Source: a virus
Virus record (IMG/VR): IMGVR_UViG_3300031788_000136
Coordinates: 1 to 20,005 of that record
Length of the DNA stretch: 20,005 nucleotides
Direction: 5' to 3' (one strand)
In this document: positions 2,355 through 17,480 of the stretch, piece after piece
How the letters are laid out: the number at the start of each line of letters is the position of its first letter
Numbering within the stretch: the stretch's first letter is position 1
Notes under the pieces: generated by a model
Told to the model about the DNA's origin: nothing
What the model saw: only the letters and a program-made list of their open reading frames with translations
Databases searched by the model: none
Program-made: the position numbers and the translations under genes

Positions 2355-4312
2355 ACAATAGCGGCTATCGGATCGGGTTGGTTGAGTATGAAAACTTCAT
2401 GCCATTCGCATCCGCGCAGATTGACTTTTCCGTTCCGGGTGTGACCGTCGTTGAAGGCGAAATCCTGAATGTTCCGGGATGCGAAAATAACGGCGCAGGG
2501 AAGTCGTGTTGCCTGGAGGGGCCAGTCTGGGCGTTCTACGGTCGGTGCATCCGCGAAAAGTACAAGGGGGATGATGTAGTGGCGCTCGGATCGACCGGCG
2601 GGTGCCGGGTCCGTGTCAATTTAGTTGGCGGGGATCAGCCAGTTGTTGTCGAGCGGTTCCGCAAGCATCCGTTGCACAAGGATCGCGTGTACCTGCTGGT
2701 TGGGAAGAACGCGACCTATACCGATTCGCCGGGGACGAATACTGAAACGGAACTGAAGATTGAAGAACTGCTCGGCATGAGTTTTATGACGTTCGTCAAT
2801 ACGGTTGCCTTCGGCGCCCGGGAAGACATCAAGGGATTCTTTTCGGCCAGTGATGCAGACCGCAAGGCGATCTTGGAAAATGTTCTGGGGCTGGCGCTGT
2901 ATGCGGACGCGGAAGTGATCGCACGCAAGCGGCTGAAGATTCTTGTTGGAAAGTTGAACGTATTGTCCAGTGAATTTACGACGCTGGAGCAGCGGGCCAC
3001 GGAGAAGCAGGAAGTCGTAGCGCGGTTCCGTGAGCAGGCGGAAAGCAATGATGCCGCGCTGGCGCTGGCGGAACTGAAGCTGAGGGCAAAGCAGACCGGC
3101 GATGCAGTGAAGAAGTCATCGGCGGTGGTTGCTAAGATAAAGGCGGAACTGACACAGGTTGCTGCGCAGTTCCAAATCAAGCAGGGCGCGTTTACGGACG
3201 CGTTCAAAACGTACAGCGATGCTAAGGGGGCGCTTCAGCAGGAAATCGGGGATCTGAAGGGAGAAATCGGCAAGGTAGTCGGACAGGTGCAGTCGCTGAA
3301 AGTGCGCAAGGCGAAGCTTGTGAAGTCGTCCGGGGCGGAATGTCCGCAGTGCGGTCAAGAGATCAAACCCGCGCACGTCAAGTCCGCGTCCGTGGCACTG
3401 GAAGCGGAGATTGCGAAGCTGGAACACAGCTTGACTTGTTTTGATATGGAAGTGGATCAGCGGAAGAACAAGGTCGAAGCACTGACTGCGCCGGTTGCTC
3501 CGGACAACGAAGCCGTGACGGAAAAGAAACTGCAGTGCAATCAGGCGGCAAGCGCCTTGGAAAAGCATATGGCGGTAGAAGTCGAAGCGAAGAGGCAACT
3601 GGTGAAGGCGCAGGCTGACTATGACGCGTCAACGCAGCAACTGGACGCATTGGAAGCCGAAGCGAATGCGCTGACGACGGAAGCTGCCGGTAAGCATGCT
3701 GAATATGACCTGTTGAACCAGGACGCTGCGAAGCTGGAATTCTGGGTGACCGGGTTCGGTAATCAAGGTCTTAAGAGCTATTTGATTGAAGCGGAGATTC
3801 CGGAAATCAACAAGAACGCGACGGGGTTTGTCCATCGCTTTCTCGGCAACGGCGCGTACGTGCGGCTCAGCGCCACGAAGCAGAACAAGACGAACGCGGT
3901 CGTCAAGGATGAACTGACGGTGCAAGGCGTGATCCCCGGTATGACCAGGACGTATGCAGGCGCGAGCAAGGGACAGAAGCGCCGTATGGACCTGGCGATC
4001 CTGCTGGGGTTTTGGAGGGTCACGTCGTCGCGCGCTTCCAAGCGGTTCAATCAACTGTTTTTTGACGAACTGTTTGACGGATTGGACCGGACCGGCAGTG
4101 AAAGCGTAGTAGAACTGCTGCGCGAACTGGCGGAAGACAGACCGGTCATCGTGGTTAGTCAGGATGATCGGATTAAGTGCGCGGGGGCGCGGATCGTGCT
4201 GGTTAAACATAACGGCGATCCGGTCAAAGGCAGGGCAACGATAGTCGGCGGCGCAAGTGCGACCGCCAAGGTTGCGACTCCTAAAGTCGCGGTGTTGAAG
4301 AAGAAAGGCTGA
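2348..4312 (+). CDS. SbcC/Rad50-like AAA ATPase (recombination endonuclease subunit)
   Basis: A 654-residue SMC-type ATPase that should partner the SbcD-like protein in DNA-end processing, as in T4 gp46/gp47. Walker A is near the N-terminus (ENNGAGKS, Lys52). Long charged helices flank a zinc-hook CPQC at residues 332-335, and the C-terminal ATPase half has a signature-like AGASKGQKRRMDLAIL (about 537-552) and Walker B LFFDELFDGLD (D573). The usual SGGE signature is replaced by SKGQ, and the H-loop position reads VVSQDD instead of VSH. The GTG start is chosen because it lies 8 nt after AGAAGGA and gives the sensible N-terminus MSNNSGYRIGLVEYENF; the longer frame from 2315 runs through the upstream gene. 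The start codon lies inside the palindrome at 2340-2354. Confidence 0.9.
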   Translation: MSNNSGYRIGLVEYENFMPFASAQIDFSVPGVTVVEGEILNVPGCENNGAGKSCCLEGPVWAFYGRCIREKYKGDDVVALGSTGGCRVRVNLVGGDQPVVVERFRKHPLHKDRVYLLVGKNATYTDSPGTNTETELKIEELLGMSFMTFVNTVAFGAREDIKGFFSASDADRKAILENVLGLALYADAEVIARKRLKILVGKLNVLSSEFTTLEQRATEKQEVVARFREQAESNDAALALAELKLRAKQTGDAVKKSSAVVAKIKAELTQVAAQFQIKQGAFTDAFKTYSDAKGALQQEIGDLKGEIGKVVGQVQSLKVRKAKLVKSSGAECPQCGQEIKPAHVKSASVALEAEIAKLEHSLTCFDMEVDQRKNKVEALTAPVAPDNEAVTEKKLQCNQAASALEKHMAVEVEAKRQLVKAQADYDASTQQLDALEAEANALTTEAAGKHAEYDLLNQDAAKLEFWVTGFGNQGLKSYLIEAEIPEINKNATGFVHRFLGNGAYVRLSATKQNKTNAVVKDELTVQGVIPGMTRTYAGASKGQKRRMDLAILLGFWRVTSSRASKRFNQLFFDELFDGLDRTGSESVVELLRELAEDRPVIVVSQDDRIKCAGARIVLVKHNGDPVKGRATIVGGASATAKVATPKVAVLKKKG

Positions 4313-4316
4313 TGAG

Positions 4317-4472
4317 ATGGAATTGAAATCAAAATTGTTGGCGATGAACGGGAAGTTGACAGAGGCGGATATGGAGCTTGCGAAGTTCGAGCGCGGCAAT
4401 AAAGCGGCCGGCACGCGTCTTCGCAAGGCGATGCAGGAGATCAAGACGCCCGCACAGAAGACCCGGTGGTGA
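4317..4472 (+). CDS. Histone H1-like (Hc1-type) small DNA-binding protein
   Basis: A 51-residue Lys/Arg-rich protein. The central segment, AKFERGNKAAGTRLRKAMQEIK (residues 22-43), closely matches the N-terminal signature of Hc1-like histone H1 homologues, small helical DNA-binding proteins known from chlamydiae and also seen in phages and environmental bacteria. It ends after QKTRW, slightly shorter than family members I remember. The ATG is 4 nt after the SbcC-like stop, with no strong Shine-Dalgarno, so coupling to the upstream gene is likely. Together with two HU-like genes in this window it suggests that the phage packs or organises its own DNA. The 89 nt that follow up to 4561 appear non-coding and hold only the ribosome-binding region of the next gene. 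Confidence 0.65.
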   Translation: MELKSKLLAMNGKLTEADMELAKFERGNKAAGTRLRKAMQEIKTPAQKTRW

Positions 4473-5804: not shown

Positions 5805-6076
5805 CAGACGAAGAGGTAATGGCACAGCCGTGCGAAGAGTGCGGGGGTGCGTGCGAAGTGACGCATGTTGATTACTCGTTTCACATGCGCTGTACCGGGT
5901 GCGGCGCTACGTTTTATCGGGAAGGTGTCGAAGGGATGGAAACGCTTCTGATCGAAGCGCTTGAAGGGCTTGTCAATGCGGTTGAACCGATTACTCGTGA
6001 AGTCGGGCGTGAAGTCGGGGATGCTTGGAATAAAGCGAAGCGGGCGTTGCAGATTGCGAAGGCAAAAAAGGATTGA
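5801..6076 (+). CDS. Small zinc-ribbon protein
   Basis: A 91-residue protein with two CxxC knuckles, C11-x2-C14 and C31-x2-C34 (CTGCGATF), plus C18, the pattern of a zinc ribbon. Residues 45-91 form one or two charged helices. Such small ribbons in phages often bind nucleic acid or a protein partner; no specific role can be read here. The ATG overlaps the HU-like gene's TGA. Its own TGA (6074-6076) lies inside the palindrome at 6073-6087, and the next start codon (GTG 6081) lies in the same palindrome, so this gene and the methyltransferase form a coupled pair. Confidence 0.82.
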   Translation: MTDEEVMAQPCEECGGACEVTHVDYSFHMRCTGCGATFYREGVEGMETLLIEALEGLVNAVEPITREVGREVGDAWNKAKRALQIAKAKKD

Positions 6077-6087
6077 CACTGTGTCAC
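6073..6087. promoter_or_regulatory. 15-bp palindrome, copy 3 (on cytosine methyltransferase start)
   Basis: TTGACACTGTGTCAC, one mismatch at the last base. It holds the upstream TGA (6074-6076) and the GTG start (6081-6083). The context AAGGATTGACACWGTGTCA is the same as at copy 2. Confidence 0.8.
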
Positions 6088-8816
6088 AACTGAATTGCGT
6101 CAGCTTGTTTACGGGGAGCGGCATTGGCGACCTTGCCGCCGAAGCGGCTGGCTTTACGACCGTGCTGCAGTGCGAGAACGAACCGTTTTGTCTGGACGGT
6201 CTGAACGTGTTGTTTCCGAACGTGCGAAAGGTGAAGGATGTCAAAAAACTCAACCGTAAAATCTGCAAAGAAGTTGTCGAAAAGCACGGGAAAATACGAC
6301 TTCTTATTGGCGGGTTCCCGTGTTTCCCTGCGGGAACGCCGGTTTTGACGGATGTTGGAGAACGCCGGATTGAATCGGTCAAGGTTGGGGATCGGATGTT
6401 GACGCACAAAGGGCGGTATAAGAAGGTCGTACGGACGGGGAGTAAGTACGCGCCCGCGTTGTTGAAGATAACAGCGACGGGCGCGCTGCCGTTTCGAGTT
6501 ACGTGCGAACATCCGTTTTGGGCGCGCGAACGGAAGTACGTGTGGGATTCGGCTTTGCGGCGGTATGTCCGTATTTTTACAAAACCGGAATGGGTTCCTG
6601 CGGAGCGGCTGACGACGAAGCATTTTATTGCGCAGCCGATAGATCGGTTTGAAACGGATCGGAAGTGGGAGTCTGAAGAATTTTGGTACATGATCGGGCG
6701 TTACTTAGGTGACGGTTGGTTTTGTAACGGGAAGCGGAAGAGTAAAATTAAGCGCGGTCGTGGAAGTCGGATCAACAGTCGCGTTTGGAAGGTGGTTATC
6801 TGCACGGCGCGCATTGACGGGGATGATTTAGAACGCCGGATTAAAGTCGCTGGTTTTCACGCAACGCGGGACAATGCGGGGAGCGTGACGAAGTTCATTA
6901 TCTGCAGTCAGCGGCTGACTGAATTTGTAATGCAGTTCGGTCGGTATGCGGACGGCAAGTACATTCCGGAATGGGTGTTAGGTGCGCCAGTTCGCATTTT
7001 GAAGGCGTTGTGGGCGGGGTACATGGATGCGGACGGAAATGAAGGTAAGAATGCAGCAGAAAACACTTCGACGGTTAGCCGTGATCTGGCAGCGGGGATG
7101 GCGCGCGCGGCGCGCAGAGCGTTTTGTCAGCCAGTTGCCTTTTACCGATCCGTGCGGGAAAAGACCTGTGTGATCGAAGGGCGGGTGGTAAATCAACAGG
7201 ATGCGTATCAATTGCGGCGGTGTGTTCATCGGCAGATTGGTTTTGAAGAAGATGGGATTGTTTGGGAACCGGTGCGCCGTGTGCAGCGGATTCCGGGTCG
7301 GGAAGTTTTTAACATCGAGGTCGAACATGACCACACTTACATTGCGGCATCATTTCTTGTCCACAACTGCATCGATATTTCCACGGCGGGTAAAGGCGCA
7401 GGCATCACGGGCGCGGCGTCGGGCCTTTGGTTCGAGATGTACCGCGTTACCCGTATCTTGCGACCAGATTGGTGCTTGTTTGAAAATGTACCTCCTCTCC
7501 GCATTCGAGGCGCGGACCGGGTGCTCGCTGGCATGGACAAAGCAGGCTACGACTGCTGGCCGGTCGTGGCTGGTGCTTGGGCGGCGGGCGCTCCCCACGT
7601 CCGAAATCGAGTCTGGATTGTCTGCCGAAACCGGGACATCCCCTACGAACAGCCGGTGGCCGACGCCGGTAGTGTACGACGACACTCCGGGGGGTCCGAA
7701 CAATCACTACAAGGGGTTGGGGCATCAGGCGAAGCACGGGAATATCAACAAGGTGAATTGGCCCACAGCGCACGGAATGGTGAATCCGGAAGTGGATCGT
7801 CCGCACGGTCCAACCGGTTGCGAGTTGGGAAGGGCGGTGACAAAGGTATCGGAGTCGGCTTGGCCGACTCCGATGGCGGGCGGGCTGGCGAAGACGAAGA
7901 ACCGAGAATTGCTGCAAGCGAAGAACTGGCCGACACCGCGCAGGGAAGACAGCGAACAGACAGGGGCGCACGCCGGCGTTCCGGATACGCTGACCAGTGC
8001 GGCAAGAACGAAGAACTGGCAAACGCCCGGAGCAAACGAACGGGAAGCAATTCCGAAGACGTATCGGCGGGGCAATCCGAATTTAGCGTTGCAGGCGACG
8101 TGGCAAACGCCAACGGCGGGAGCAGCAACGGCGGGAAACAGAAGTCGAAGCGGAAAGCGAAAGGGCGAACTGCTGCTGACCGGGCAGGCACGGGTGTCGT
8201 CCTGGCCGACACCCACGACGCAAGACGCAACGAATCTGGCCGGACCGTCGCAGTTCGACAGGAACAGTGCGCCGCTCAACGTTGCGGTAGTCAAGGCAAG
8301 TTGGCCGACACCGAATGCGTCCAAGGCGGTGAACGATACGGGATTACAGTGCAGCGGAGACGGTCGGAAGAAACCGAACAAGTCGGGATGGGTAACAGCG
8401 GCGCAGGAAATGGCGATGCGCAAGAAAACGTGGGCAACACCGCAGTGTGCGGACGAAATGGGGGCGCGCGGAGGATTGGACGAAGCAATCGAACGGCACG
8501 CGAAGAAGGGCGTACACAAGCAGATGATGCTGGTGGAGCAGATTATTCACGATCCGAGGAATTCTGGCCAGCAGAACCAGGGCAGCCGCAGTACGACTGG
8601 GAATATCCCCGCCTCACAACCGACCGGGCAGGGATCGGATGTCCCGTTGACCCGCGGGGCGGGGAGTTTGAATCCAGCTTGGTGCGCGCAGTTAATGGGC
8701 TTCCCCGCGTATTGGCTGGCCGCATTCGCCGCGGGTGCTTGCGCGTCTTGGGAAACGCGTGGGTTCCGCAGATTCCGTACGAAATTTTCAGATGGATTAG
8801 AGCGCAGCTTGATTGA
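6081..8816 (+). CDS. C5-cytosine DNA methyltransferase precursor interrupted by an intein
   Basis: A Dcm-family enzyme, 911 residues before splicing and 562 after, that should methylate cytosine at C5. Motif I is LFTGSGIGDLAAEAAGF (residues 9-25). Motif IV is split: GGFP, then an intein (residues 81-429), then CIDISTAGKG. Motif VI is FENVPPLRIRG, motif VIII is APHVRNRVWIV, and motif X is LGNAWVPQIPYEI at the C-terminus. The target-recognition region between VIII and X (about 7645-8660) has degenerate repeats of the form ELADT. GTG 6081 is chosen because AAGGA lies 8 nt upstream and it places motif I at the expected spot. Codon use in the recognition region looks less typical than in the +1 frame, which is separately noted. 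Possible roles are protection from host restriction or epigenetic control. Confidence 0.9.
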   Translation: MSQLNCVSLFTGSGIGDLAAEAAGFTTVLQCENEPFCLDGLNVLFPNVRKVKDVKKLNRKICKEVVEKHGKIRLLIGGFPCFPAGTPVLTDVGERRIESVKVGDRMLTHKGRYKKVVRTGSKYAPALLKITATGALPFRVTCEHPFWARERKYVWDSALRRYVRIFTKPEWVPAERLTTKHFIAQPIDRFETDRKWESEEFWYMIGRYLGDGWFCNGKRKSKIKRGRGSRINSRVWKVVICTARIDGDDLERRIKVAGFHATRDNAGSVTKFIICSQRLTEFVMQFGRYADGKYIPEWVLGAPVRILKALWAGYMDADGNEGKNAAENTSTVSRDLAAGMARAARRAFCQPVAFYRSVREKTCVIEGRVVNQQDAYQLRRCVHRQIGFEEDGIVWEPVRRVQRIPGREVFNIEVEHDHTYIAASFLVHNCIDISTAGKGAGITGAASGLWFEMYRVTRILRPDWCLFENVPPLRIRGADRVLAGMDKAGYDCWPVVAGAWAAGAPHVRNRVWIVCRNRDIPYEQPVADAGSVRRHSGGSEQSLQGVGASGEAREYQQGELAHSARNGESGSGSSARSNRLRVGKGGDKGIGVGLADSDGGRAGEDEEPRIAASEELADTAQGRQRTDRGARRRSGYADQCGKNEELANARSKRTGSNSEDVSAGQSEFSVAGDVANANGGSSNGGKQKSKRKAKGRTAADRAGTGVVLADTHDARRNESGRTVAVRQEQCAAQRCGSQGKLADTECVQGGERYGITVQRRRSEETEQVGMGNSGAGNGDAQENVGNTAVCGRNGGARRIGRSNRTAREEGRTQADDAGGADYSRSEEFWPAEPGQPQYDWEYPRLTTDRAGIGCPVDPRGGEFESSLVRAVNGLPRVLAGRIRRGCLRVLGNAWVPQIPYEIFRWIRAQLD
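6321..7367 (+). other. Intein 1 with LAGLIDADG homing endonuclease (in cytosine methyltransferase)
   Basis: A 349-residue in-frame intein. It begins at Cys1 (CFPAGTPVLTDVGERRIESV, block A), has a block B RVTCEHPFW with the Thr/His pattern, and ends with block F/G HTYIAASFLVHN followed by Cys+1 of the C-extein. The penultimate His and terminal Asn are both present, so standard class 1 splicing is expected. Two LAGLIDADG-type helices are visible: MIGRYLGDGWF (Asp211) and LWAGYMDADGNE (Asp316, Asp318), both keeping acidic catalytic residues, so the homing endonuclease may be active. The insertion point is exactly before the catalytic cysteine of motif IV, the most conserved site of the enzyme. 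The Cys+1 splicing nucleophile is also the methyltransferase nucleophile. Confidence 0.93.
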
Positions 8817-8844
8817 CGCGGGTGTGCTGGAAGAAAAGAAGTAA
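7645..8844 (+). CDS. Alternate-frame reading of methyltransferase recognition region (expression unproven)
   Basis: The +1 frame relative to the methyltransferase is open across the whole recognition region and ends at TAA 8842-8844. From about 7645 its codons look more typical of this genome (many ACG, CCG, GCG, AAG, GAA) than the methyltransferase frame. It contains repeated WPTP/WQTP motifs and ends with LNPAWCAQLMGFPAYW, a C-terminal signature I know from phage cytosine-methyltransferase-family proteins. No convincing start codon with a ribosome-binding site is visible near 7645. It could be reached by +1 frameshifting from the methyltransferase, for instance at CCC-T (7641-7644), or could be a leftover of an older reading frame. 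The start coordinate is only where the frame begins to look coding. Confidence 0.35.
   Translation, partial: TNSRWPTPVVYDDTPGGPNNHYKGLGHQAKHGNINKVNWPTAHGMVNPEVDRPHGPTGCELGRAVTKVSESAWPTPMAGGLAKTKNRELLQAKNWPTPRREDSEQTGAHAGVPDTLTSAARTKNWQTPGANEREAIPKTYRRGNPNLALQATWQTPTAGAATAGNRSRSGKRKGELLLTGQARVSSWPTPTTQDATNLAGPSQFDRNSAPLNVAVVKASWPTPNASKAVNDTGLQCSGDGRKKPNKSGWVTAAQEMAMRKKTWATPQCADEMGARGGLDEAIERHAKKGVHKQMMLVEQIIHDPRNSGQQNQGSRSTTGNIPASQPTGQGSDVPLTRGAGSLNPAWCAQLMGFPAYWLAAFAAGACASWETRGFRRFRTKFSDGLERSLIDAGVLEEKK
7657..8441 (+). repeat. Nine dispersed copies of an 11-bp motif (TGGCCGACACC-like)
   Basis: A degenerate motif, best form TGGCCGACACC, occurs at 7657, 7759, 7861, 7927, 8017, 8101, 8203, 8302 and 8431. 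All spacings (102, 102, 66, 90, 84, 102, 99, 129) are multiples of three. It therefore always reads LADT/LANA in the methyltransferase frame and WPTP/WQTP in the +1 frame. The copies differ mainly at synonymous or near-synonymous positions. This points to a repeat kept for protein sequence rather than a DNA-level tandem array. Confidence 0.8.
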
Positions 8845-12792: not shown

Positions 12793-12979
12793 GGAAATTA
12801 TGGGAGAAGATGAACGATCTAAGTTTGATTTGCTGGCGCGTGTTGTGAAGCAGGAGAAGGAAACGCTGTTGTCGAAGGCAGCGGGCGTGGAGTTGATCCG
12901 CGCCGTGCTCCTGGCGGACATTGGCAAGCTGCCGCCGGAAGTCCGCGAAGCCCGGTTGAAGCTGGAAAGGACTGCGTGA
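12785..12979 (+). CDS. Small helical hypothetical protein
   Basis: A 64-residue, highly charged, helical protein (SKFDLLARVVKQEKETLLSK then PPEVREARLKLER). Not recognised. ATG 12785 overlaps the preceding stop and has AGGGA upstream; ATG 12800, preceded by GAGGAA, is an equally good start giving 59 residues. The TGA at 12977-12979 abuts the palindrome at 12980-12994, which contains the start of the next gene. This is again the stop, palindrome, start arrangement. Confidence 0.65.
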   Translation: MREEIMGEDERSKFDLLARVVKQEKETLLSKAAGVELIRAVLLADIGKLPPEVREARLKLERTA

Positions 12980-12994
12980 TTGACATGGTGTCAA
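12980..12994. promoter_or_regulatory. 15-bp palindrome, copy 5 (on DPPA methyltransferase start)
   Basis: TTGACATGGTGTCAA, one mismatch between arms. It directly follows the upstream TGA and contains the ATG at 12985 and the GTG at 12988. Confidence 0.78.
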
Positions 12995-15450
12995 AGGTTA
13001 AGTGCGCGGACTGTTTGACGTTTCTGAAAACGCTTCCGGATAACTGCGTGGATGCGGTTGTGACGGACCCTCCGGCCGGCATTGGATTCATGGGCAGGGA
13101 ATGGGATACTTTCAATGATGTGCCAAGCGGATTTGTCGGGGCGTCTCCGGCAAATATACGCGCGACGAATGCGATGTTTTCTCACAAAGGGCAGACAATA
13201 GCTGAGTCTGGAAAAGCGCGTCATGCGTTCATCGAGTTCATAACTGCCGTCATGTCTGAGTGCCTGCGTGTTCTCAAGCCTGGCGGGCATGCGCTGGTTT
13301 GGGCACTTCCCCGTACGTCGCATTGGACGGGAACGGCGATCGAAGACGCGGGGTTTGAGGTCCGCGACCGAATATCGCATGTATTCGGGTGCCTGAGCGA
13401 TGACACTGAAATCATGGTTGATGGACGGTGGGAACCTTACCGAAATGTTGCTGAAAGTCGTCTCGCTTTAGGGTATAATCCCGACGATGGAACATTTACC
13501 TGGCAACCAATCGAGCGAGTCTTTGCCTACGACCACGACGATACTGCTTACCGAATCGAGTCCGACAGGACTAATCAAATCGTTACACGTAATCACCGCT
13601 GCCTCGTTGAACGCGGCCCAGGAAGCTATGGCTTCCAGGTCGCCGAAGAAGCGGCACGGAAACTCGAAATATCTGTACCCATTCTGGAAGACGTGCGAAG
13701 TCTGCTCGAGTCCCTTCCCATGCCAAACGCGCGATTAGGTGAGGCGGAACAAGACGTGTGGGATGGAATGCGCTGCCGAATCAACGAGCAAGAAGAAGAT
13801 CGGCAAGTTTCGCCCGCCAAGTCCGCGCTGCCGGTTTTGCAAGATGACGTTTCGACCGGATCGTCCGGCGAAGGCTTTGGGGGATTATCTCTATTGCTCA
13901 ACAAAGTGCGCAGCACAGGATCGCAGGTCGAAACCGGGATTTTCTGCAAAGATGAAGAGGATTGGCGCACTGGGACGCGCGGGCTGGACAGAGGATTCCC
14001 GCAAGTCTTATCTTTCAAAGATGGGTGGGTCACTCAACCCGGCGTGGAAGGGTGGCATCACGATACTCAGAACGCACGGGAATTATGCTGGTGTCCGATA
14101 CGTCCGCTGCCCGGTTCCGTTCTTGCCGATGGCCCGGAAGGACGGATACGTGATGGAGCATCGACTGTTTGTTGCGAAGGCAATGGGTCGATGTCTGTTG
14201 AGGGTCGAGGTTGTGCATCACGACAACCACGACCCGACGGACAATGCGATCAAGAATCTGGCACTGTTCGCGCGCAATCGGGACCACAAGCTTTTCGAGC
14301 ACCGCGGCATACCGTTACCGATCTGGCACGGATAACGCCGTTCCACTTCAAGGGGGTCGTCTGGTGCGTCAAGGTCGCTACCGGGGCATTCGTCGCACGA
14401 CGAAATGGCAAGGTGTTCGTGACGGGGAACAGTGGCTTTCCGAAGTCGCTGGACGTAAGCAAGGCAATCGACGAAGCGGCTGGGGCAGAACGGGTAATCC
14501 TGTCCGAAGGAAAGTCGCTTAAGCGGATGATCCCCGGCGCGGATCAGGACAAGACGGGAAGTTGGATTAAGGATAACGGGAGAGAGTTTGTTCCAACGAA
14601 AACCGCGCCAGCAACCGACGCCGCCCGTCAATGGGACGGATGGGGCACGGCGCTAAAGCCGGCGATGGAAGATTGGTGGCTTGCCCGTAAGCCGTTGATC
14701 GGCACTGTAGTCGCTAACGTCGTGAAGCACGGCACGGGGGCGCTGAACATCGATGGGTGCAGGGTCAACCCCGGTGAACTTACGCCCGGCGGAAGGAATG
14801 GAAAGGCACACAATCGCGGCGGTTGGTGCGCCCGAGAGACGTTTGGCGTGCGTCCTATTGTCAAGCCGCACGCCGATGGCCGTTGGCCCGCTCACCTTGT
14901 TCACGACGGAAGCGAAGAAGTGCTGGCGGGATTCCCAGATAGCGATGGACAAGTGGGAGACGTAAAGGGGAACGAACCAAGTCACACCGGCGATGGCAAC
15001 TCGAATTGCTATGGAGAATATGGTCGAGTTCCCCAGCCGAAGCGGGGTGACACTGGCAGCGCTGCTCGCTTCTTCTACTGCAGCAAAGCGTCCAAGCGTG
15101 ACCGGGGCGAGAACAATCATCCGACCGTGAAGAACACGCGGCTGATGCGCTGGTTGTGTCGCTTGGTTACGCCTCCCGGCGGCGTGGTGCTGGACCCGTT
15201 TGCAGGCAGCGGCAGTACGGGTGTGGCTTGTGCGAAGGAGGGATTTCTGTTTATTGGTTGTGAAAAGGATGCTACGCACGCTCGGATTGCTTCCAAGCGC
15301 TTTGCCGAAGCGGTGAAGGAAGCCGAACGGAGGCGCATTGCGAAGAAGGCACGGCAAGCGGCGAAATGGAAGCCTGTCCGTTTTAAGCCTGCTACGGCGG
15401 CACGGAAATCCGTTGACACTGTGTCAAAGGTTGCACGGGCGAAGCACTAA
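12985..15450 (+). CDS. Site-specific DNA methyltransferase (DPPA type) precursor interrupted by an intein
   Basis: An amino-methyltransferase (N6-adenine or N4-cytosine), 821 residues before splicing and 474 after. Motif IV, VVTDPPAGIGFMGREWD (about 25-41), comes first. RVLKPGGHALVWALPRTSHW and GFEVRDRISHVFG follow, then the intein (136-482), then SGFPKSLDVSKAIDEAAGAE. The SAM-binding motif I, VLDPFAGSGSTGVACAKEG, is at the C-terminus (near 734). The IV-before-I order is typical of beta-type enzymes, and DPPA in place of DPPY is common in phage members. The ATG lies within the palindrome at 12980-12994; GTG 12976 is an alternative start with AAAGGA close upstream. A second palindrome at 15413 lies ten codons before the stop. 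The target base cannot be told. Confidence 0.88.
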   Translation: MVSKVKCADCLTFLKTLPDNCVDAVVTDPPAGIGFMGREWDTFNDVPSGFVGASPANIRATNAMFSHKGQTIAESGKARHAFIEFITAVMSECLRVLKPGGHALVWALPRTSHWTGTAIEDAGFEVRDRISHVFGCLSDDTEIMVDGRWEPYRNVAESRLALGYNPDDGTFTWQPIERVFAYDHDDTAYRIESDRTNQIVTRNHRCLVERGPGSYGFQVAEEAARKLEISVPILEDVRSLLESLPMPNARLGEAEQDVWDGMRCRINEQEEDRQVSPAKSALPVLQDDVSTGSSGEGFGGLSLLLNKVRSTGSQVETGIFCKDEEDWRTGTRGLDRGFPQVLSFKDGWVTQPGVEGWHHDTQNARELCWCPIRPLPGSVLADGPEGRIRDGASTVCCEGNGSMSVEGRGCASRQPRPDGQCDQESGTVRAQSGPQAFRAPRHTVTDLARITPFHFKGVVWCVKVATGAFVARRNGKVFVTGNSGFPKSLDVSKAIDEAAGAERVILSEGKSLKRMIPGADQDKTGSWIKDNGREFVPTKTAPATDAARQWDGWGTALKPAMEDWWLARKPLIGTVVANVVKHGTGALNIDGCRVNPGELTPGGRNGKAHNRGGWCARETFGVRPIVKPHADGRWPAHLVHDGSEEVLAGFPDSDGQVGDVKGNEPSHTGDGNSNCYGEYGRVPQPKRGDTGSAARFFYCSKASKRDRGENNHPTVKNTRLMRWLCRLVTPPGGVVLDPFAGSGSTGVACAKEGFLFIGCEKDATHARIASKRFAEAVKEAERRRIAKKARQAAKWKPVRFKPATAARKSVDTVSKVARAKH
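13390..14430 (+). other. Intein 2 in the DPPA methyltransferase, with overprinted linker
   Basis: A 347-residue in-frame intein. Block A begins at Cys1 (CLSDDTEIMVDGRW), block B is IVTRNHRCLV, and the C-terminal blocks are VVWCVKVATGAFVARRNGK and VFVTGN, followed by Ser+1 (SGFPKS). Joining VFG to SGFPKS restores the normal methyltransferase sequence. The penultimate residue is Gly, not His, which is allowed in some families. Between blocks B and F the intein frame stays open for about 240 residues (roughly 13616-14335) but carries no endonuclease motif. The same DNA in the +1 frame encodes an HNH endonuclease ending exactly where block F begins. This is not the usual fused endonuclease arrangement. 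Confidence 0.88.
13739..14335 (+). CDS. HNH homing endonuclease in the +1 frame inside intein 2
   Basis: A 198-residue frame, +1 to the intein. A zinc knuckle (CRFC and CSTKC, residues 31-57) precedes an HNH core: VEVVHHDNHDPTDN (H160, H161), NLALF (N173) and RDHKLFEH (H183), preceded by DGYVMEHRLFVAKAMGRCLL. This is a homing-type HNH nuclease that probably spreads the intein. The frame continues upstream to an ATG at 13628 with AGGAAG before it, but a TAG at 13736-13738 interrupts, splitting a first zinc-finger pair (CEVC before, CGMEC after). The product may start at GTG 13739, or the gene may be damaged. Codon use is typical of the genome. The TAA at 14333 sits just before the intein's C-terminal blocks. 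Confidence 0.72.
   Translation: MRRNKTCGMECAAESTSKKKIGKFRPPSPRCRFCKMTFRPDRPAKALGDYLYCSTKCAAQDRRSKPGFSAKMKRIGALGRAGWTEDSRKSYLSKMGGSLNPAWKGGITILRTHGNYAGVRYVRCPVPFLPMARKDGYVMEHRLFVAKAMGRCLLRVEVVHHDNHDPTDNAIKNLALFARNRDHKLFEHRGIPLPIWHG
15413..15427. promoter_or_regulatory. 15-bp palindrome, copy 6 (end of DPPA methyltransferase, before portal)
   Basis: TTGACACTGTGTCAA, perfect. It lies in the last codons of the methyltransferase (VDTVSK) and about 30 nt before the portal start. It shares the longer GTGTCAAAGGTT with copy 5 at the other end of the same gene. Confidence 0.78.
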
Positions 15451-15458
15451 CGGATACA

Positions 15459-17480
15459 ATGTCAGCAATGACGCAGTTTCAAACGCAAGATCCGTCGCAG
15501 CCGACGCGGGGTGAGCAGTTGGCGAATGTCCACGATTACCCGTGGTATTGGCGTCTGCGCGAACTGTTCGGGCTGAATCGGCACGCATTGTCGAGCGAAG
15601 AAGATCCGCAGACAGCGGCTGAACGTGAGGGGCTGCAGCTTCAAGAATGGTTCATGCGGCAGTTCCAGATTTCGACGAACCGGCAGGAACGCTACCGGAT
15701 CTTCGAGGAAATGGACACGTTTGATCTGGTGCAGGCGGTCATGGACGTGTACGCGGAAGAGTGCACGCAGAAGGATTACGACAAGGGTAGGGCGGTGTGG
15801 ATTGAAAGCAGGCATTCACACATGGTTCACAGCGGGGACGTGTGTCTGGCGAACGCCATGCTGGAAGACCGGCTGTTTCAACTGGTCCGGCAGACGTGCG
15901 TGATGGGAGACAGTTTCCGCCGTCTGTTGTATCAAGCTGGCAAGGGTGTGCTCGGCTGGAAGTATGCGGCGCCGCCGCAGTGTCATCGGGTCGAAGATAA
16001 GTACGATCGGTTGATCGGCTTCCGGCAGGACGGACACAGTTTTCGCGGGCGCAAGCATCCGGTGAGTTTTCCGTGGGATTACGTACACTTCCGGTTGATG
16101 GGCAAGGAAGTCGATACAGTGTACGGGTCGTCAGCCTGCGCTCCGCTGTTTCGTAGTTGGAGGCAATTGGTTTTATTTGAAGATTCAGACTTGATGTACA
16201 ATTTGCGGCGGGCCGCTTCGCGCAATCTTGTGCTGGTGGACACGGGCGATCTGGACGACGTGGAAGCGACGGAGCGGTTGAACCGCTGGCGTAAGCGGAT
16301 GAAGAAGCACGAATTCATAGATCCAGCAAGTCCTAGCTATAAGAAGTCGTACAACCCGCTAACGCCGTTGGAAGATATTTTCGTGGCTATCCGAGGGCCG
16401 GACGATCAGACCCGAATTGAAAATCTGGAAGGCAGTCCGAATCCGCTGTCCCCCGAGCGGATGGATTACTACCGCAAGAAGTTCTGTGGCGTGGCGCGCA
16501 TTCCTGGGGACTATTTAGGCTGGGGTGAAGACAGTGACGCCAAAAGCACGTTATTGCAAAAGGACGTGAGATTTGCAAGGACGATGAAGCGCGTTCAGAA
16601 GATGGCGATCTACGGGGTCCGCAATCTTCTGGACATTCACTACTCTTTGTTTTCCGGTGATCCGGATCGGGACGTGCAGGATCAGGACAAGTATGACGTT
16701 TCCAAGAATCCGTACCTGGTTTGCATGTCGCCGATTTCGTATCTGGACGAATGGGAGCGGCTGGAACTGGTGCAGTTGAGGTACAGCATTATCGAGGCGA
16801 TGGCGGGTCTGGGGCAGTCGTTGCAGATCGACGTTCATGCTTGGACGACGTATATCCTCTTGCACTACGCGAAGCTTCCGGAGGATATCGTCCGGCTGCT
16901 GACTAAGCGCGTGGACAACGCAGACGCGGCAGGCGGCGGGATGCCGCCGGGCAGTCCTTCCGGCAGTCCTGGATTGTTTGGTGCGGCTCCGGGGGGCAAC
17001 GGCGCGCCTCCGGCGTCGGGTGGACCCGCTGGACCGGGCGAAGAATTTGATTTGAACAATGACAGATTCGGTTTGCACGGTAACGGGCGGCGCCGGCTGT
17101 TGACGGAAGTTGAACGGAAGTGGGGTGCGGCGCGCAAGGGTATGGATTCGCGCCGTTGGTCTTCTGGATTTTACGAACCGAATGAAGCAGAGCAGAAACG
17201 GATTGCGGAAGCGATCCATGCCAGCCCGAAGTTGAGGAAGCTGATTGGGGATTTCGCGGAATTTCACAGTGACGACGAACTGACGGAACAGCAGACTGAC
17301 TTTTCGACCCTGCCGCCGCGTATTCTGTGTGAAGAGTTTGACACTGTGTCAAACTGCAAGGTCTATCAGATGCGGTTTTTCTCGGACGACGTTGCGGAAG
17401 ACGACGAAGCGAAGATCTTGAAAGAAGACATCGCACGATTGAATCAGCCGGTGTTGACGGAAGGACGCAGTGGCAACTAA
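15459..17480 (+). CDS. Portal protein
   Basis: A 673-residue portal, the dodecameric ring at one head vertex through which the terminase packs DNA. The central part has the portal pattern of large tailed phages: ERYRIFEEMDTFDLVQAVMD, CVMGDSFRRLLYQ, PPQCHRVEDKYDRLIGF, FPWDYVHFRL, YGSSACAPLFRSWRQL and later GDYLGWGEDSDAKSTLLQKD. A Gly/Pro-rich linker lies near residues 490-525. The C-terminal part contains the palindrome at 17338-17352, read as FDTVSN. No strong Shine-Dalgarno precedes ATG 15459; ATG 15468 is an alternative. It follows the DPPA methyltransferase closely, with the palindrome at 15413 about 30 nt upstream. Placement after terL, with methylation genes between, fits a head and packaging module. 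Confidence 0.85.
   Translation: MSAMTQFQTQDPSQPTRGEQLANVHDYPWYWRLRELFGLNRHALSSEEDPQTAAEREGLQLQEWFMRQFQISTNRQERYRIFEEMDTFDLVQAVMDVYAEECTQKDYDKGRAVWIESRHSHMVHSGDVCLANAMLEDRLFQLVRQTCVMGDSFRRLLYQAGKGVLGWKYAAPPQCHRVEDKYDRLIGFRQDGHSFRGRKHPVSFPWDYVHFRLMGKEVDTVYGSSACAPLFRSWRQLVLFEDSDLMYNLRRAASRNLVLVDTGDLDDVEATERLNRWRKRMKKHEFIDPASPSYKKSYNPLTPLEDIFVAIRGPDDQTRIENLEGSPNPLSPERMDYYRKKFCGVARIPGDYLGWGEDSDAKSTLLQKDVRFARTMKRVQKMAIYGVRNLLDIHYSLFSGDPDRDVQDQDKYDVSKNPYLVCMSPISYLDEWERLELVQLRYSIIEAMAGLGQSLQIDVHAWTTYILLHYAKLPEDIVRLLTKRVDNADAAGGGMPPGSPSGSPGLFGAAPGGNGAPPASGGPAGPGEEFDLNNDRFGLHGNGRRRLLTEVERKWGAARKGMDSRRWSSGFYEPNEAEQKRIAEAIHASPKLRKLIGDFAEFHSDDELTEQQTDFSTLPPRILCEEFDTVSNCKVYQMRFFSDDVAEDDEAKILKEDIARLNQPVLTEGRSGN
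17338..17352. promoter_or_regulatory. 15-bp palindrome, copy 7 (late in portal gene)
   Basis: TTGACACTGTGTCAA, perfect, flanked by one more complementary base on each side (17337-17353). It reads FDTVSN and lies about 155 nt before the HU-like gene start. Confidence 0.75.

Follow-up and report, generated by a model that had tools for sequence, protein, structure and literature searches.

The methylase gene and its intein

The window, by which we mean the whole stretch of 20005 bases analysed here, contains a phage DNA methyltransferase gene interrupted by an intein, and the DNA of the intein also encodes an HNH endonuclease sequence in its +1 frame (Table 1). Profile searches place the methyltransferase in the N6/N4 type (PF01555, E 6e-25; phrog_67, E 6e-57), and its neighbors are phage terminase-like and portal genes. 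The methylase and the intein form a single open frame. A first-pass annotation of this DNA had proposed intein splicing blocks at both ends of an insert lying in one continuous methyltransferase frame, and this is borne out, as positions 12976 to 15450 are open and the catalytic landmarks are conserved. Cys1, the block-B histidine (His69) and the terminal Asn347 are invariant across 46 homologues, and the Asn|Ser junction at the intein end is found in 49 of 49 listed loci. The insertion context in the window methylase is ...EVRDRISHVFG|SGFPKSLDVSK..., and intein-free alleles were found that read ...KVAHIFG|TGFPKS (L178) and ...RVAHVFG|SGFPKS (L179). The penultimate residue of block G is glycine (Gly-Asn), the usual His-Asn being absent in this intein family. 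A penultimate histidine is usual in block G, yet it is not obligatory for inteins.

The window intein belongs to a divergent intein family, since the Pfam intein models do not detect it and recover just 5 of the 46 family members at E<0.01. An NCBIfam search likewise gave no match for the HNH or the intein. The family profile matches the AceL NrdHF intein (E 1.3e-8). In an AlphaFold model of the intein built with 45 homologues, residues 1–110 have pLDDT values of 92–98 and both ends exceed 92, while the spacer is mostly below 50 (most of intein residues 149–286). The model gives a confidently predicted Hint fold formed by the two intein ends together, with disorder between them, and its PDB matches in Foldseek belong to the Hint superfamily and are for the most part inteins (E 6e-5, prob 1.00). 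The linker, earlier described as lacking known motifs, indeed holds no known domain. The conserved splicing residues and the predicted fold suggest that the window intein splices out of the methylase precursor.

Table 1. Features of the methylase–intein–HNH locus (window coordinates) and related loci
Feature	Position	Strand	Remarks
Phage DNA methyltransferase gene (PF01555 N6_N4_Mtase, phrog_67)	12976..15450	+	824 aa with intein, 477 aa without
Intein, 347 aa	13390..14430	+	Cys1 ... Gly-Asn, then Ser+1; inserted in ...HVFG|SGFPKS...
Intein N-terminal splicing half, blocks A and B	13390..13692	+	CLSDDTEI..., ...VTRNHRCLVER..., VPILED
Intein spacer, ~205 residues in intein frame	13687..14301	+	Disordered by prediction and kept open; no known domain
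Intein C-terminal splicing half, blocks F and G	14302..14430	+	...VWCVKVATGAFVARRNGKVFVTGN; pLDDT ~97
Upstream HNH frame: N-terminal extension and zinc knuckle 1	13487..13738	+	Extension dual-coded with block B; terminated by TAG
Onset of dual coding	13529..13738	+	From here intein synonymous sites conserved and +1 stops absent in relatives
In-frame TAG in HNH frame	13736..13738	+	At conserved Gln, CAG to TAG; alters only a spacer residue in intein frame
HNH endonuclease ORF, +1 frame, 198 aa	13739..14335	+	Downstream of TAG; zinc knuckle 2 and HNH core
HNH core residues	HH 14216-14221, N 14255-14257, H 14285-14287	+	From alignment of nested homologues
Direct +1 methylase overprints			L031, L049, L051, L055, L060-L063, L065, L066, L068-L074, L076-L083, L092, L094, L095

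The HNH reading in the +1 frame

The open reading frame downstream of the TAG codon matches phage HNH families (phrog_20891, E 9e-13), and Pfam HNH_3 matches it at E 1.2e-4, which is under that model's cut-off. The core residues H197, N210 and H220 (P0003 numbering) are invariant in the nested homologues, and the zinc-knuckle cysteines C68, C71, C90 and C94 (same numbering) are kept in at least 90% of them. The nuclease residues H160/H161, N173 and H183 named at first pass are in the numbering of the 198-aa frame. An AlphaFold model of the HNH protein has a mean pLDDT of 84.5, with 93–98 in the HNH core; the Foldseek placement of this model is weak (I-HmuI, E 3), and a profile search of the HNH against the PDB gave no match.

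A closer look at the edges of the spacer shows the two readings sharing nucleotides. At the 5′ edge, VPILE in frame 0 and YPFWK in +1 lie on the same bases, and both motifs are kept in relatives. At the 3′ edge, the first bases of block F also hold the HNH stop, CCGATCTGGCACGGATAA giving TDLARI in frame 0 and PIWHG* in +1; these six shared codons are at once the end of the HNH and the opening of block F, in agreement with the earlier reading that the one ends where the other begins. The block B DNA GCCTTGTTGAACGAGGC (window 13600-13620), which recurs in many relatives, contains by eye a near-perfect 7-bp inverted repeat that coincides with conserved synonymous sites.

The nested layout in relatives

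A query with the HNH against viral contigs returned 80 loci. The HNH is flanked by intein halves in 48 of these, or 49 together with L003 (a 484-kb uncultured phage record) or the window, and in those 49 loci both intein halves lie in one stop-free frame with the HNH in +1. An intein query and one scan of genome contigs enlarged the set to 73 distinct inteins, in every one of which the intein frame is stop-free and the HNH is in +1. The +1 nesting is the standard form of this intein family, beyond one phage. Stop-filled linkers, which the first-pass annotation had named as evidence that would count against the overlap, were found in none of the 73.

The layout could in principle be produced by sequencing or assembly frameshifts, with the HNH of the true gene sharing the frame of the two intein ends. 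Two such errors would conceal an ordinary HNH-containing intein, and the window is one piece of a virus assembly. The 73 inteins come from independent contigs and share an identical +1 layout over an unbroken intein frame, no member found has the HNH in frame, and the selection signature in both frames (below) also speaks against an assembly frameshift. We give this explanation, and the double frameshift error raised at first pass, a negligible probability.

Selection on both frames

In a recoding test, HNH codons were recoded synonymously, either by permutation within each open reading frame or according to host codon usage. Over 47 distinct loci with an intein-borne HNH (class I), the intein frame has 0 stops, compared with 437 (permutation) or 606 (host usage) expected, while the third frame is not depleted (543 stops seen, 490 expected). 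For the window alone there are 0 intein-frame stops against 8.3 or 12.3 expected on HNH recoding (P<0.0005). Variability at intein codon positions 1, 2 and 3 is 0.61, 0.42 and 0.37 in the overlap and 0.42, 0.36 and 0.66 in the N-extein; variation in the overlap thus peaks at intein codon position 1, which is position 3 of the HNH codon, and in the N-extein at position 3. HNH pN/pS is 0.21–0.46 among the 25 closest pairs, and the intein-frame value is above 1. Given the HNH protein and an open frame, residue likeness in the intein frame is 0.239, barely above the 0.219 of recoded sequences, and the largest excess occurs near both spacer ends, where the splicing blocks begin. Taken together, the recoding, codon-position, pN/pS and residue-likeness results show that the HNH sequence and the openness of the intein frame are selected, and that the spacer residues mostly are not. 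The homologue search and the comparison of substitution rates that had been suggested for this locus therefore find an HNH under purifying selection and an intein frame kept open.

These results bear on a further explanation, in which the intein frame is open by an accident of base composition and the overlap is a dead relic or an intron acting at the RNA level. In its favor, group I introns often contain HNH genes, and the window HNH is broken. Against this, an intron would not require an open host frame, and an Rfam search of 12900-15500 gave no match up to E 1. The accident is excluded by the 0 stops against 437–606 on recoding and by an HNH pN/pS well below 1. We therefore regard an intron or relic as highly improbable.

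Where the HNH reading begins

Constraint on the HNH frame begins sharply at about intein residue 47 (window ~13529). Read in the upstream direction, the relatives have 0 stops in +1 against 36 expected in the first segment and 0 against 30 expected in the following one, while nearer the intein start such stops are not depleted (63 seen, 53 expected). Position 13628, previously taken as the start of dual coding, is therefore too far downstream, since the +1 stops vanish from ~13529. The ATG at 13628 was dropped as a candidate HNH start; it lies inside the dual-coded part, which starts ~100 bases upstream of it. In the window, the candidates for the HNH start are ATG 13487 and TTG 13523, neither of them strong, with no strong ribosome site.

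The sharp onset, and the fact that no single start codon is universal (an onset ATG occurs in only some of the loci), would fit a frameshift of ribosomes into +1 around intein residue 47, which would fuse the HNH to the N-extein and the N-terminal half of the intein. However, 70 of the 73 loci have an ATG, GTG or TTG codon after the last +1 stop and before the dual-coded part, and the onset ATGs more often have Shine-Dalgarno-like sites such as AGAGGAGGT than control ATGs do (43% below −5 kcal/mol anti-Shine-Dalgarno pairing, compared with 21% of controls, p=0.002). Inspection of the alignment by eye showed no conserved slippery motif. A ribosomal frameshift is thus improbable in our judgment, and internal initiation is favored as the way in which the HNH would be made, because of the start codons in 70 of 73 loci and the stronger Shine-Dalgarno pairing at onset ATGs.

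A stop codon in the window copy

In the window, the TAG codon falls within the first zinc knuckle of the HNH frame, at a glutamine that is conserved across nested HNHs and encoded by CAG in relatives. The proposal of an HNH in +1 over 13628-14335 consequently holds for the identity of the HNH, but not for a continuous span. Similarly, the idea of two functional readings nested in one another is upheld as regards the nesting, but the two are probably not both functional in this copy: given a TAG at a conserved glutamine, the full-length HNH is probably dead, or not made. The TAG could also be an assembly error. Because TAG is the ordinary stop for at least two other reading frames of the window, genome-wide suppression of TAG is unlikely.

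The HNH of the window copy might nevertheless be alive, either through suppression of the stop or through a restart at GTG 13739, directly after the TAG, giving an active HNH with one knuckle. Shorter one-knuckle nested HNHs exist (L045-L059), and the HNH core is retained in 13739-14335. Weighing against a live enzyme are the conservation of the glutamine, the retention of knuckle 1 in full-length close relatives and the use of TAG as a terminator elsewhere in the window, and no relative has a nonsense codon at the same HNH position. We consider a live HNH in this copy rather unlikely. In a relative, L165, the HNH core is deleted while the intein frame stays intact. Together with the TAG copy, this is consistent with endonuclease decay following fixation, during which the splicing frame would be retained because the methylase needs splicing.

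Mobility and HNH relatives without the intein

Extein matches were collected by a blastn screen and then checked by global alignments. Intein pairs that are 84–86% identical in DNA occur inside methylases just 36–55% identical in protein (for example, L096/L132). Near-identical inteins in divergent methylases, along with the empty sites, are as expected if the intein and its HNH travel together from one divergent allele to another. A Mantel test of co-inheritance points weakly in the same direction (HNH–intein rho 0.27), the pairwise comparison being clearer. From the HNH family, the empty sites and the transfer pattern, we infer that the HNH cleaves intein-free methylase genes.

Most HNH relatives that lack the intein overprint the same methylase directly, also in +1, in the loop between GFPKS and GTALKPA (Table 1). 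These direct overprints have 0 host-frame stops in 24 distinct loci, where 130–195 are expected. HNH relatives with no match to the intein query were considered as free-standing controls and rejected, nearly all being overprinted in the methylase. Only L043, L064 and L075, and probably also the plasmid locus L090, L098 and L099, appear free-standing; the apparently free-standing phage contigs make up two groups (L043; L064 with L075), and the plasmid HNH is that of L090. The intein-borne (class I) and direct (class II) forms cluster in the HNH tree, whose few columns and many open forks are too little to fix single origins or the number of transfers.

We think it likely that these genes are a distinct class of phage homing endonuclease, whose coding sequence is adapted for stop-free reading by the host (“read-through” homing genes), found within one methylase family in two settings: borne by an intein, with the spacer spliced away, or left unremoved in a variable methylase loop. 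The two readings would be inseparable and move together, while the in-frame content drifts and only its openness is selected.

Several related arrangements were observed. One direct +1 overprint of the methylase sits on the Cupriavidus necator chromosome. In L130 (4074-4817) and L142 (4098-4676), a second HNH frame lies in +1 downstream of the intein-borne HNH in the same methylase gene, and in L117, L127 and L162 (~3670-4464) the second downstream methylase HNH frame is in +2, as in the ShiLan domain discussed below. A member of another methylase family (L097, 293-2458) has an HNH in +1, with 0 stops in the host frame and 12 in the third frame.

The window has a second overlap, in its C5 methylase gene (5961-8816), where a 547-aa +1 frame (7201-8844) is rich in WPTP repeats that the other frame reads as LADT. 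Under recoding, 0 stops are seen where 4.2 are expected (P 0.002) in one direction and 1 where 18.8 are expected in the other, and the WPTP frame has a weak match to DNA lying between cytosine methylase genes of phages. This C5 methylase gene also carries, in its PC motif, a canonical intein with in-frame LAGLIDADG-like motifs (~6321-7370).

Proposed mechanism

Our explanation, which we hold to be very probable as a whole, is that of a mobile intein with its own homing endonuclease overprinted on it. In frame 0, ribosomes would read the methylase mRNA straight through the intein, after which the Hint halves (blocks A/B and F/G) would fold around the disordered spacer, excise themselves and restore the methylase. 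In the +1 frame, ribosomes would start inside the intein gene, near block B, and make a separate zinc-knuckle HNH endonuclease. This enzyme is proposed to cut intein-free methylase genes at the GFPKS site, so that repair copies the intein and the HNH together. Selection maintains the HNH sequence and, on the same DNA, a stop-free intein frame. In the window copy, the change from CAG to TAG probably killed the full-length HNH and left a spliceable intein open, which may represent a degenerating stage of the homing cycle; with GTG 13739 beside the TAG, a restart could yield a one-knuckle enzyme.

Comparison with known systems

On the prevailing view, the endonuclease of an intein shares its frame or, in a split intein, occupies a gene of its own. 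Canonical large inteins resemble the window element in having a Hint domain, an endonuclease between blocks B and F and an insertion in a conserved motif. They differ in that their LAGLIDADG or HNH endonuclease is in frame, whereas the window HNH would be a separate protein encoded in +1 and the in-frame spacer is predicted to be disordered. A close relative of the splicing domain, in a terminase-like gene (L170, 1211-3478), has in-frame LAGLIDADG-like motifs and possibly represents the ancestral architecture. Split inteins whose halves flank a free-standing endonuclease gene were reportedly described by Dassa et al. in 2009. As proposed for the window, their intein region encodes the endonuclease as a polypeptide of its own, but the window intein is unsplit and the two genes overlap on the same DNA. 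I-HmuI, a group I intron HNH with weak fold similarity to the window protein, is also a homing enzyme nested in a self-removing element. In the window, by contrast, removal would occur at the protein level, the overlapped frame must stay open and no intron was found.

The closest parallel is the ShiLan domain, together with the Pacc40 gp60 insertion, in which a hidden, out-of-frame HNH was described for DNA methylases of mycobacteriophages (Arsenault, Gosselin, Gogarten 2025, PMC11855218). No splicing domain turned up in that study, whose authors anticipate that the protein retains the insert, and by their account a ribosome binding site is absent (PMC11855218). Our searches of the open literature turned up no endonuclease overprinted on an intein; a preprint from this group, on “non-canonical architecture” in actinophage inteins (10.1101/2025.01.02.630785), may bear on priority.

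Like the ShiLan domain, the window element is a zinc-finger HNH placed out of frame in a phage DNA methylase whose host frame is open, and the ShiLan domain is also patchily distributed, which suggests homing. The ShiLan HNH occupies the third frame (+2; L004, and likewise the ShiLan-type Mantra) rather than +1, forms a distant branch in the HNH tree and is inserted at a different point from the window intein. In the window family, a single piece of DNA serves two selfish functions, one per frame; this is so in dozens of distinct viruses, with selection measurable on both frames, and provides a well-populated natural set for overlapping-gene evolution, internal initiation and the stages of homing decay. 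Annotation pipelines that forbid long overlaps on the same strand are expected to miss such HNH genes. While ShiLan has no intein, the window insert is an intein with a Hint domain that could remove a nonsense-like spacer. Splicing out of the overprinted spacer suggests how an out-of-frame endonuclease can inhabit a gene harmlessly, the puzzle that was left open for the ShiLan domain.
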